Assembly: GCA_947167215.1 (NCBI GenBank)
Contig: CAMVHE010000012.1
Span: 1 to 58,156 of the forward strand
Direction: 5' to 3'
Source: an uncultured Clostridia bacterium
GTDB taxonomy: Bacteria > Bacillota > Clostridia > Christensenellales > Aristaeellaceae
DNA: 58,156 bases
Shown here piece by piece: positions 905 through 4,176 of the stretch. Within the stretch, counting starts at the first letter, position 1. The number at the start of each line of letters is the position of its first letter. A program made the position numbers and the translations under genes. The notes below the pieces were generated by a model. It was not told where the DNA came from. It saw only the letters and a list, made by a program, of their open reading frames with translations, and made no database searches.

Positions 905-926
905 TACCATCTGGCCTTTTTCTTTT
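892..926 (+). terminator. intrinsic terminator after the DUF3137-like gene
   Basis: A 9-position stem (CCAGACGGT against ACCATCTGG, one C/A mismatch) with a five-base loop is followed by CC and a T-rich run. The TGA stop of the gene lies within the hairpin. Confidence 0.75.
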
Positions 927-1638
927 ACTTTTGCACCGGAGGCGTCCTGAGGTAGGAAAGGAAAGCTTCCACCGAAGGTTCTTCCAGCGTCACAGAAACT
1001 TCCGCTTCTGAAATATCCCCGAGATAATGCGCATCGGAAGAATGCAGTACAACCTTTCCTGCCTGCGGGGTATGCGGGCAGGGCAGCAGACGCCAGACCT
1101 CCACGGCAGTCAGGTTCAGGTTCGGGGGAATGAATCCCAGATTCATGAGAAGACCATTCGCTCCCCGGTTGATGTGTGCGGGAACCGGAACGCCTCCCAC
1201 ATCACGCACCGCCTTTACCAGTTTCTCGAGGGAAAGATCCGATGCCCCGATCAGAAGACAGTCTTCCTCCGCAATGACTTCATCGTCTTCGTTCATCACC
1301 AGCTGGTTTCCGAAAACAGCCGGCGTATTCTTCCCCTTGGGCATATGTCCGCGAAGGAACTCGCCAAAGTCCAGTGCAGTCGGAACATCCGGAAAGTATC
1401 CGAGTAGGTGTACTTCCTCACTGGTCGTAATCTCCATGCCCGGAATAAACAGCAGTCCATATGCTTTTGCACAGGCGGCTGCCGCGGGGAGGTTTCTTGC
1501 GTTGTTATGATCCGTAACGGCAATCATCTGCAGACCTTTCAGCATTGCCATGCCGCAGATGTTCCCCGGCGTCATATCATCGCTTGCGCAGGGAGATACA
1601 CAGGAATGAATATGCAGATCGGAAAAGAGTGTAACCAT
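925..1638 (-). CDS. PHP-domain metal-dependent phosphoesterase
   Basis: A 237-residue single-domain PHP protein. Visible metal-site motifs are DLHIH at residues 7-11, TDHNN near 42-46, PGMEITT with Glu69, HINRG in the middle and SSDAH near the C-terminus, in the order expected for the trinuclear-metal PHP fold. Family members hydrolyse phosphomonoesters such as histidinol phosphate or nucleotide 3'-phosphates; the substrate here cannot be read from sequence. It is the last gene of the minus-strand operon, three bases after the second DRTGG gene, so it is co-transcribed with the hydrogenase-like protein and probably acts in the same signalling or redox circuit (inference). Confidence 0.88.
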   Translation of the reverse strand: MVTLFSDLHIHSCVSPCASDDMTPGNICGMAMLKGLQMIAVTDHNNARNLPAAAACAKAYGLLFIPGMEITTSEEVHLLGYFPDVPTALDFGEFLRGHMPKGKNTPAVFGNQLVMNEDDEVIAEEDCLLIGASDLSLEKLVKAVRDVGGVPVPAHINRGANGLLMNLGFIPPNLNLTAVEVWRLLPCPHTPQAGKVVLHSSDAHYLGDISEAEVSVTLEEPSVEAFLSYLRTPPVQK

Positions 1639-1641
1639 ACG

Positions 1642-1986
1642 CTACGCCCTTCCCGATACGCCCTCCGCTGCCATTCTGCCGCAGATATCAAATGCAGTCA
1701 GCGGAGAAGAAAGTACCATCATCCCCTCAGCCTTGGCTTTTTCCAGGCTGTCTCCTTCCATGGTAATTCCCTCCGGGAGGATCACGCATGCCATCTCAGC
1801 CAGCACCGCTACAGCAACCACGTTCATATGGGTCTGGACGGTTACCCATGCCATGCCTTCCTCGCCATGGCTCATCACCCAGCTCAGCAGATCACAGCAG
1901 TAACCGCAGGTAATCTCCCGGTCAAGAGGAAGTTCGGGGGTCAGGTTGGCGGCTTCAATCAATGTAATCAGATCATTTGCTTTCAT
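1642..1986 (-). CDS. DRTGG-domain protein (second copy)
   Basis: A 114-residue protein that is essentially one DRTGG domain, a fold also found in phosphotransacetylase and next to CBS pairs, thought to bind small ligands. The ATG at 1986 has GGAG eight bases upstream; a longer reading frame to 2079 runs into the hydrogenase-like gene and is unlikely. It lies 10 bases after that gene and 3 before the PHP gene. It resembles the first DRTGG gene of the operon (shared pattern of a C/T-rich loop, hydrophobic core strands and a C-terminal T-A-F-x-x-C-G), suggesting an old duplication. Confidence 0.85.
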   Translation of the reverse strand: MKANDLITLIEAANLTPELPLDREITCGYCCDLLSWVMSHGEEGMAWVTVQTHMNVVAVAVLAEMACVILPEGITMEGDSLEKAKAEGMMVLSSPLTAFDICGRMAAEGVSGRA

Positions 1987-1996
1987 GATGTTCTCC

Positions 1997-3301
1997 TTAT
2001 TCTCGTTTTGTCTGTGCCAGCTCCAGCATCTGCTGGGCCATATTCTGAATCTTGTTCCGCATGAGATGGATACAGTCAAGCTCTACCGCAAATCCGCGCA
2101 CAATGTCCTCTGCGAAAGTCGCACAGGTAGGTGAGCCGCAGGAGCCGCAGTCATATCCGGGAAGTCTTTCCAGAATCTCGTTCATGCGCTTCATCTTCCG
2201 CATTGCCTCTGCCAGGTTATCATCCAGCTTCACCGCGGGATTGGGAAGAAAAGGCATGTCATTGCGGGTGGGATACTTGTTCAGCATGGAAATGGGGACA
2301 TCCTGGTCCGGATGCACATCCGGCATCTGGCTGACCATCTTCTTGATGGCATTTTTTGCAACATAGTTATTTTCAAAAGTCAGTGCTCCGCCGACGCAGC
2401 CGCCCATGCACGCATTGCCTTCCAGGTAATCCAGGTCCGTAAGCTTTTCGTTTTCCACTTCTTCGAGAACCCGGATAACATTGGGAATGCCGTCCACTGC
2501 AAGGCTGTTTCCCGGGCAGACCGCATTCGCCTCGCCGTCCGATGTCGCCCAGGCCACGCCATAACGAGTCGCGGGCACAAAGTCGGGATCAGACATCATT
2601 TCCTGAATATGCGGAAGCAGCAGTCCGTAAAGCTCCATCATGGAAATTGCCCCGTTCAGCTCCGATTCATGCTGTCCAAGGGGCGTACGGATGGCTGTCA
2701 TCTTTGCAGGACAGGGGGTAATGAAAAAGCATCCCACATCTTCCGGCTGGCAGTCATGCTTCTTGCAGAATTCCCTTCTCGCAATGCTAGCAGCAACTTC
2801 CATCGGCTGACGGATATCAATGACCTGGTCCAGCAGATCCGGAAAACGGACCTGAATGAGACGTACCACTGCAGGACAGGCCGAAGAAATCATAGGTCTC
2901 GGAAGATTCGGCTCCCTTAAACGTTCCCGTATTGCCCTCGTGACCACGTCTGCGCCCCTGGCCACTTCAAAAACATCGTCAAAGCCGATGCGTAGCAGCG
3001 CTTCGAGTACAAATTCAGGCCGGGTCATTCCGCGGAACTGCCCGTAAAGCGAAGGTGCCGGCAGCGCGATGCTGTACTTGTATGCCTTGATATTCGAAAG
3101 CGCATCGGTGAAAGCAACTTTGGCGTGGTATTCACAGATACGGATACATTCTCCGCAGTCAATACAGAGGTTGTCAAGAATATGCGCTCTCCCGCCGCGC
3201 ACGCGGATGGCTTCCGTCGGACAGTGATTCAGACAGTTGGTGCATCCTTTGCAGCGTTCCTTATCGAGGCGTACGGAATGGTATCTTCTTTCCTCCATCA
3301 T
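1997..3301 (-). CDS. [FeFe]-hydrogenase-like H-cluster protein, probably sensory
   Basis: A 434-residue protein. Two ferredoxin 4Fe-4S motifs (Cys17/20/23/27 and Cys46/49/52/56) are followed by an [FeFe]-hydrogenase large-subunit domain and a C-terminal four-cysteine FeS domain (Cys385/388/393/410). The four H-cluster ligands appear kept: Cys142 in SSACP, Cys197 in TPCPAK, Cys298 and Cys302 in NACMGGC. The residue just before Cys142, the proton-relay cysteine of catalytic hydrogenases, is Ala141, and the usual methionines of the second and third motifs are Thr and Asn. Known sensory-type (group C and D) enzymes share the Cys-to-Ala change. GGAGG lies five bases before the first of two tandem ATGs. 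The operon context (ATPase, DRTGG, PHP) supports sensing over bulk hydrogen production. Confidence 0.88.
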   Translation of the reverse strand: MMEERRYHSVRLDKERCKGCTNCLNHCPTEAIRVRGGRAHILDNLCIDCGECIRICEYHAKVAFTDALSNIKAYKYSIALPAPSLYGQFRGMTRPEFVLEALLRIGFDDVFEVARGADVVTRAIRERLREPNLPRPMISSACPAVVRLIQVRFPDLLDQVIDIRQPMEVAASIARREFCKKHDCQPEDVGCFFITPCPAKMTAIRTPLGQHESELNGAISMMELYGLLLPHIQEMMSDPDFVPATRYGVAWATSDGEANAVCPGNSLAVDGIPNVIRVLEEVENEKLTDLDYLEGNACMGGCVGGALTFENNYVAKNAIKKMVSQMPDVHPDQDVPISMLNKYPTRNDMPFLPNPAVKLDDNLAEAMRKMKRMNEILERLPGYDCGSCGSPTCATFAEDIVRGFAVELDCIHLMRNKIQNMAQQMLELAQTKRE

Positions 3302-3319
3302 CTGTTCCTCCCCCTATGC

Positions 3320-3745
3320 TTACGCCAGGGTAAAGCGCATCGTGATGGTGGTCCCCACCCCAACCGTGCTCTGAATGTCAAATTCATCTGCATTGCGTTT
3401 CATGTTCGGCAGTCCCATTCCTGCACCGAAGCCCAGAGAACGGGCCTCCTCATTCGCAGTGGAATAGCCTTCCCGCATTGCCATTGCCAGATCGGGAATT
3501 CCCGGTCCCACATCGGTGGAAACCAGTTCCACCGCTTCCGGATATACCGCCAGACGCAGTTCCCCTCCAAGGGAATGGATGACCAGGTTCAGTTCCACTT
3601 CATAGGAAGCAACTGCCACTCTTCTTAAAACGTCGCCCCCTACGCCCAGCTGCTTCAGTCTGCGCTTGATATCCGCGCTGGCTTTTCCGGCACTGACATA
3701 GTCCGCCTGTTTGATGGGATAATTCGTTGAAAACAATTCTTCCAT
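3320..3745 (-). CDS. anti-sigma-factor-type ATP-binding protein (RsbW/RsbT-like)
   Basis: A 141-residue GHKL-fold ATPase. The signature boxes are YEVELNLVIHS (N-box), STDVGPGIPD (G1) and GFGAGMGLPNMKR (G2), as in anti-sigma switch kinases of the RsbW/RsbT/SpoIIAB class. The start at 3745 has GGAGGGG upstream, and its ATG overlaps the TGA of the preceding DRTGG gene by one base (TGATG), which predicts translational coupling. An in-frame start at 3769 lacks this. No anti-sigma antagonist (STAS protein) or sigma factor gene is in the window, so its partner is unknown; neighbours suggest it relays the state of the H-cluster protein. Confidence 0.85.
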   Translation of the reverse strand: MEELFSTNYPIKQADYVSAGKASADIKRRLKQLGVGGDVLRRVAVASYEVELNLVIHSLGGELRLAVYPEAVELVSTDVGPGIPDLAMAMREGYSTANEEARSLGFGAGMGLPNMKRNADEFDIQSTVGVGTTITMRFTLA

Positions 3746-4116
3746 CAGTCTTTCCCCTCCGTATCCCATTCAATCGGAACTCCCCTCAGTCCTGCCTCAT
3801 AAAGCAGACCGCAGGTGGAGAATGCCGTGTACTTCGTTGTCAGCACGACCAGGCCCTGTTCGTCCGCGCTCTCCAGAATATCATCCGTCGGCACCTTTCC
3901 TCTGGCAAACACGAGGCACTTCAGATCGAGCATTTCACTGGTTCGTACGACATGAGGGTTCGTGAGGCCTGTAATCAGCACTGTCTTTTCGTTCACGAAT
4001 GCAAGCACATCACTCATGAGGTCAGAGCAGCATGCGGTATACACGGGTGTATCCAGCTTTTCCTCCCCCAATAACACTTTTGCATTCAGGACTCGTACCA
4101 TATCCGCAATCGTCAT
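3745..4116 (-). CDS. DRTGG-domain protein (first copy)
   Basis: A 123-residue DRTGG-domain protein and the first gene of the operon, read from a near-consensus promoter 32-60 bases upstream with a GAGGTG ribosome site. Its stop overlaps the start of the anti-sigma-type ATPase by one base. The short N-terminal segment MTIADMVRVLNAKVL is followed by alternating strands and helices typical of this ligand-binding fold. Partner and ligand are unknown. Confidence 0.85.
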   Translation of the reverse strand: MTIADMVRVLNAKVLLGEEKLDTPVYTACCSDLMSDVLAFVNEKTVLITGLTNPHVVRTSEMLDLKCLVFARGKVPTDDILESADEQGLVVLTTKYTAFSTCGLLYEAGLRGVPIEWDTEGKD

Positions 4117-4147: not shown

Positions 4148-4176
4148 ATTTTAGTGGAAAAGGCCCTCATCGTCAA
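4148..4176 (-). promoter_or_regulatory. sigma-A promoter of the H-cluster operon
   Basis: On the minus strand TTGACG (4176-4171), a 17-base spacer and TAAAAT (4153-4148) stand about 32 bases upstream of the first DRTGG gene. Confidence 0.82.

Follow-up and report, generated by a model that had tools for sequence, protein, structure and literature searches.

Among the [FeFe]-hydrogenase homologues, those of group D are marked (according to the available parts of PMC8163306 and PMC13104023) by the loss of the proton-relay cysteine C299 (CpI numbering), by a Ser or Thr in place of M353 and by their domain order, and a sensory role for them has already been proposed in print (PMC8163306, PMC3608648). 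TamHydS of Thermoanaerobacter mathranii shows low rates and a raised H2 affinity, a sensory role being proposed by its authors (PMC8163306), and the position of HydS upstream of hydABC, together with a histidine-kinase-like gene, is likewise published (PMC3608648, PMC8163306). Group D sensors have been proposed without a known signalling partner, and the gene module described here, which is conserved across five labelled phyla, names candidates. It lies in a window of 58,156 nucleotides (the whole stretch of DNA analysed, contig CAMVHE010000012.1) from an uncultured, probably gut-dwelling bacterium of the family Aristaeellaceae (Clostridia, Christensenellales), in which a HydS gene stands within an operon of five (DRTGG1, a SpoIIAB/RsbW/RsbT-like ATPase, HydS, DRTGG2 and a PHP-family phosphoesterase; Table 1). 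The protein resembles TamHydS in domain order, in the replacement of C299, in the Ser/Thr at M353, in the C-terminal Cx2Cx4Cx16C motif, in conserved charged residues and in the linkage of its family to an ATPase gene and hydABC (PMC8163306, PMC13104023); it differs in that the window's host has no recognised HydEFG, in that the window operon lies apart from hydABC, and in its DRTGG and PHP partners, which are not discussed in the available parts of these two sources. With group C (TmHydS, HfsB and Ruminococcus albus HydS) it shares the missing proton-relay cysteine and the proposed sensing, and with TmHydS the C-terminal FeS motif (PMC8163306, available part). Group C proteins carry a PAS domain after the C-terminal cluster, whereas the window HydS has no Pfam match to PAS and ends 24 aa past Cys410, which places it outside group C by this mark.

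The association of the five genes is strongly conserved. In a neighbourhood sample made up of the closest 80 of 361 related loci, all five were found in the same order and on one strand in 72, and of the 61 loci whose flanks reach 1.6 kb or more on either side of HydS, 59 show it (the two exceptions, L057 and L060, having no PHP match). The loci are labelled Bacillota, Coprothermobacterota, Armatimonadota, Thermodesulfobacteriota and Myxococcota (five phyla according to record labels, which may err because many loci come from draft assemblies). An earlier note on this DNA had claimed that HydS is linked to the ATPase, DRTGG and PHP genes, and these counts bear the claim out; a lack of conserved linkage, set beforehand as a refuting outcome, was not observed. 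In the literature searched (including the available parts of PMC10102598 and PMC3990059) we found no DRTGG or PHP partners of HydS, and neither the five-gene module nor hydrogenase-bearing bacteria without maturases were described there, Calusinska 2010 and the description of Aristaeella, which may hold earlier notice, lying outside the search.

HydS consists of two N-terminal 4Fe-4S motifs, an H-domain and the C-terminal Cx2Cx4Cx16C motif. In an alignment of 104 HydS rows (56 from the window's family, in which 58 genomes have HydS, those of G024 and G037 being excluded as fragments, and 48 from genomes behind other loci), the four ligand cysteines (142, 197, 298 and 302) are kept in every row, position 141 is Ala in 94 rows, otherwise Ser (9) or Tyr (1) and never Cys, and position 195 (Thr in the window, the CpI M353 position) is Thr or Ser in 104/104. 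The numbering given earlier for these cysteines and for Ala141 proved correct, and the pattern is conserved beyond chance. Furthermore, the charged residues R30, R32, K58, E392, D393, D378 and D403 of TamHydS correspond to R33, R35, K61, E398, D399, D384 and D409 of the window HydS, in a mapping made by motif and offset on the window sequence. In a tree of H-domains (built without any named group C or D reference sequence), 14 chosen HydS rows form one clade (Shimodaira-Hasegawa-like approximate likelihood ratio test, SH-aLRT, 99), apart from 20 HydA rows of group A (SH-aLRT 100) and 15 group-B-type rows (SH-aLRT 97); HydS thus lacks the marks of group A, the proton-relay cysteine being absent and its place being outside the A clade. 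Residues and tree position together fit a group D protein (M2e, TamHydS type) and not a catalytic group A enzyme, and the sensory-type relationship proposed in the earlier note, for which a phylogeny had been suggested as a check, stands. As a side observation, only one of the three sampled genus mates of the window has a HydS (L158, in G078, which also carries HydE, HydF and HydG), and it is 48% identical to the window's; HydS proteins of other genera reach 82% identity to the latter, which hints at transfer or replacement of HydS.

The ATPase consists of a small GHKL domain and has no sensor part (Pfam); its nearest solved structure is SpoIIAB (E 5e-12; CheA and RsbW are weaker matches). It shares the N, G1 and G2 boxes with SpoIIAB, RsbW and RsbT and differs from them in its lid, GFGAGMGLPN, which is near-invariant in the aligned rows, as Y48-E49, N53, H57 and DxGPGI are conserved; its NCBIfam SpoIIAB score is 45.5 against a cut-off of 135. 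In DRTGG1 (AlphaFold model with a predicted local distance difference test score, pLDDT, of 93.2) the residues D32, S35, T49, N53, G73-K74 and P76 are present in at least 95% of 79 rows, and in DRTGG2 the same holds for Y29, D32, L33, L34, S35, W47, T49 and N55 in 80 rows, with D32, S35 and T49 common to both paralogues in 34/34 aligned rows. The window DRTGG2 itself has no Pfam match, and its Petroclostridium orthologue (L042) matches DRTGG with 27.9 bits. The domain belongs to the same Pfam family as those of CBS-type pyrophosphatases and AF_1212 (weak PDB profile matches, E 5e-4 to 8e-4, ranking below a repeat-protein match taken as spurious) and differs from them in standing alone and in two paralogous copies. 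S35 was considered as a kinase-target serine specific to the DRTGG proteins of the module and, although invariant in both paralogues, was dropped as evidence because the wider DRTGG family has a similar MS motif. The PHP protein keeps H9, H11, D43, H44, E69, H77, H155, D202 and H204 in at least 95% of 75 rows, residues expected in this family to be metal ligands, and the folds nearest to its model are EndoQ, the putative phosphoesterase 3o0f, RNase AM and 2yb1 (a PHP-fold structure containing AMP and phosphate). In fold and residue pattern it is thus akin to RNase AM and the nucleoside-bisphosphatase PHP enzymes, all NCBIfam scores being far under cut-off. The conserved residues fit an ATPase and a phosphoesterase that are both active.

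An H-cluster in HydS, taken as given in the earlier note, is not supported in the way stated there. The three enzymes known to assemble this cofactor are HydE, HydF and HydG. In the window genome (3.83 Mb in 204 contigs, 96.24% complete, 7.14% contamination), which has four matches to PF02906 ([FeFe]-hydrogenase homologues), cut-off searches returned no match to HydE and none to HydG, and the best HydF candidate scored 88 bits against a cut-off of 325.55 (all 30/30 candidates scored); since HydE, HydF and HydG were not found in this genome, an H-cluster is not to be assumed here. In a family sample of 80 genomes (completeness at least 85%), PF02906 was found in 80/80, and the cut-off was passed by HydF in 15, by HydG in 9 and by HydE in 11, two further HydE-like genes below cut-off adjoining HydF. 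As every genome with HydE or HydG falls within the 15 with HydF, 65/80 have none of the three over cut-off; HydS is present in 58/80, and 44 of these 58 lack HydF. At the rank of order (121 genomes, completeness at least 90%; PF02906 at E <=1e-40 and HydG, the maturase searched, over cut-off, the two runs having the same request and handles and being taken as one set), PF02906 occurs in 116, HydG in 23 and both in 22, leaving 94 of the 116 hydrogenase genomes without HydG.

Where inspected, the hydrogenases of maturase-less family genomes appear intact. In HydF-negative family genomes the 16 cluster cysteines of HydS are kept in 43/43 aligned proteins, and so, in 43/43 each, are A82, P83 and K200, which we take (by comparison with CpI) to be 2Fe-side positions in catalytic enzymes. 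HydA, taken from 26 of the 65 HydF-negative genomes, retains CpI E279, E282, C299, S319, M353, C355, K358, M497, C499 and C503 in 26/26, and the group-B-type proteins of 19 such genomes have both Cys of motif 1 in 19/19; their last two Cys are present in 18 and 17, with gaps in the remaining rows. The ratio of nonsynonymous to synonymous substitution rates (dN/dS, with frames taken stop to stop) is low, at 0.035-0.18 for HydS in 8/8 chosen HydF-negative pairs (0.05-0.105 in three HydF-positive pairs) and 0.06-0.24 for HydA in 7 chosen HydF-negative pairs (0.05-0.165 in three HydF-positive pairs); on the residue conservation and dN/dS of the rows examined we rejected the reading that the hydrogenases of maturase-less genomes are decayed. 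At the CpI C300 ligand position HydA has Ser (TSCSP) in 39/39 family genomes (26 HydF-negative and 13 HydF-positive; L161, on contig C4 of G000, is an example), as does HydA1 of Acetobacterium woodii. TSCSPGW has been treated as a departure from the functional motif (PMC3787301, available part), and on that reading the Ser speaks against HydA having a textbook H-cluster.

With maturases missing from 44 of the 58 HydS genomes and from the window genome, HydS may carry either a whole H-cluster or its 4Fe-4S part only. The latter would make it a 4Fe-4S redox sensor, its cubane held by the four cysteines, with no 2Fe subsite and no sensing of H2, and is in line with the cluster cysteines staying in place where HydF is missing; we regard it as doubtful, since the 2Fe-side positions of HydS are kept just as strictly, and the retention of the HydA proton-pathway residues and of the group-B-type motifs would be hard to explain without H2 chemistry.

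The apparent absence of maturases could, on the other hand, be an artefact, with hydEFG residing on plasmids or islands missed by drafts, or existing in divergent forms missed by the searches. Most genomes are draft-like by contig numbers, in most family genomes 20 HydF candidates out of more were scored, the presence of maturases is patchy across the family on the HydS tree, and hydG occurs on some plasmid-filed records. Against this stand G019 (97% complete, in 3 contigs of which one measures 3.97 Mb), with HydS, HydA and further PF02906 genes and no match to HydE, HydF or HydG, while in G075, an assembly of like quality, all three lie on a contig of 3.26 Mb; the positive control Thermotoga maritima, above cut-off for all three; the full scoring of HydF candidates in the window genome; and HydG over cut-off in 35/48 genomes (of unstated kinship) from which the more distant loci of the sample of 80 come, or in 35/45 once three of the 48, all HydG-negative, are set aside as grouping with the family on the HydS tree. 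An artefact is in our view improbable, and systematic assembly gaps are an unlikely cause. Plasmids as the source of HydG were rejected as a candidate (few plasmid-filed records, 39 with any match and 7 with a query coverage of 80% or more), and no maturase was recognised, from N-terminal residues and not by profile scan, beside the hydrogenase genes of G000 and G019 (L161, L162, L175 and L222).

We consider it rather probable that the order (gut Clostridia, probably) keeps intact, selected [FeFe]-hydrogenases mostly without HydEFG, which would imply an unrecognised H-cluster pathway, the uptake of a ready-made 2Fe precursor from neighbours, or the use of the 4Fe-4S part alone. Hydrogenase genes often serve as the basis for inferring H2 metabolism in gut and rumen (e.g. 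PMC12578642, PMC6776011), and a term search of the main texts of these two papers for maturase, maturation and HydEFG gave no hits; if it is true that 94 of 116 hydrogenase genomes of the order lack HydG, then gene-based inferences of this kind fail for them, or the H-cluster can be reached by a second route.

Some family genomes have maturase genes in unusual surroundings. In G003, which has no match to HydE or HydG, HydF immediately follows a NifU-like scaffold gene and a GGGtGRT gene (L195:5493-8889). The GGGtGRT/NifU pair was considered as a substitute maturase and rejected, because the window genome does not have it and only 59/80 of the family sample do. G043 (L196:4799-9340) and G067 (L201:4599-9551) belong to the same genus, and in neither does HydG pass its cut-off; each has a row made up of ABC transporter genes, a HydE-like gene that is divergent and scores below cut-off (138.6 bits in G043, 149.7 bits in G067), and HydF. 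The transporter of L196, the locus whose proteins were profiled, includes an SsuA-type substrate protein; speculatively, the row would fit the uptake of a 2Fe precursor.

For the five-gene operon itself we consider a sensory or switch module around the group D HydS the best reading, one that we hold with about even confidence. HydS would use the metal cluster in its H-domain to sense H2 or the ferredoxin/redox state, with the N-terminal 4Fe-4S clusters as wires, and its state would alter its contact with the co-encoded SpoIIAB/RsbW-like ATPase; the latter may act as a switch kinase or by sequestration, its likely partners being the DRTGG proteins, and the PHP enzyme might (this being the weakest step) hydrolyse a nucleotide-like phosphoester tied to ligand binding by DRTGG. 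The output would most likely be a tuning of the bifurcating HydABC, whose genes are adjacent in many relatives: among 50 loci whose right flank exceeds 7.5 kb, 34 carry hydB and hydA downstream in the same orientation, usually preceded in order by hydC and by the genes of a HATPase and a 2Fe-2S protein (in some loci hydC comes before DRTGG1). Several points weigh against the sensory module: hydABC is not adjacent in the other 16 of these 50 loci, nor in the window (hydA and hydB of this genome sit at the end of another contig); the five products and three flanking open reading frames (ORFs) have no Pfam match to STAS or to a sigma factor, a difference from the SpoIIAB, RsbW and RsbT systems; the C-terminal cluster of TamHydS gave no response to H2 (PMC13104023, available part); HydE, HydF and HydG were not found; and the steps of sensing, switching and small-molecule turnover are inferred as to partner, ligand and regulated gene. 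That the module is instead an ATP-driven helper which assembles or activates HydABC, with no signal path, is quite unlikely, for although the hydABC linkage, the second HATPase gene within that operon and the sensor-less form of the ATPase speak for it, the module occurs in 16/50 long loci without adjacent hydA, the PHP and DRTGG families indicate nucleotide chemistry and ligand binding over chaperone work, and HydABC enzymes are made elsewhere without it.

The five ORFs lie on the minus strand where the earlier note had placed them, in a tight operon (4116-925) with intergenic gaps of -1, 18, 10 and 3 bp in gene order, a spacing from which we infer that they are probably co-transcribed. The NCBIfam scores shown for the five products are all below family cut-offs, and the promoter-like site upstream of DRTGG1 is no better than expected from shuffles (4 such sites in the region, where shuffled sequences give 2.8 on average).

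Table 1. Features of the HydS operon and its surroundings in the window
Feature	Position	Strand	Length	Remarks
DRTGG1	3745..4116	-	123 aa	first gene of the operon; Pfam DRTGG 36.3 bits
SpoIIAB/RsbW/RsbT-like GHKL ATPase	3320..3745	-	141 aa	Pfam HATPase_c and HATPase_c_2
HydS, group D [FeFe]-hydrogenase-like	1997..3301	-	434 aa	Pfam Fe_hyd_lg_C 110.1 bits, FeS, Fer4 (4Fe-4S)
DRTGG2, paralogue of DRTGG1	1642..1986	-	114 aa	29% identity to DRTGG1 in alignment
PHP-family phosphoesterase	925..1638	-	237 aa	Pfam PHP 31.5 bits
HydS codons of Ala141 (CpI C299 position) and Cys142 (cluster ligand)	2876..2881	-
HydS codons of C-terminal Cx2Cx4Cx16C (Cys385-Cys410)	2072..2149	-		all four Cys in 104/104 rows
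Promoter-like site TTGACG-17-TAAAAT upstream of DRTGG1	4148..4176	-		10/12 matches; weak

A second sensory-type H-domain protein was observed in L048, from a Clostridia assembly, on a contig that also carries HydS, DRTGG2, PHP and hydA. There an open frame of 741 codons (L048:9052-11274, plus strand) encodes an H-domain with a C-terminal FeS motif as in HydS, which continues into a sigma-54 activator domain of the AAA+ type (241 bits) and a helix-turn-helix of Fis type. It is only 26% identical to HydS (its place in the tree being unsure, on a long branch), and the protein is, from its domains, an apparent hydrogenase-type transcription regulator, which suggests that sensory-type H-domains can feed into transcription control.

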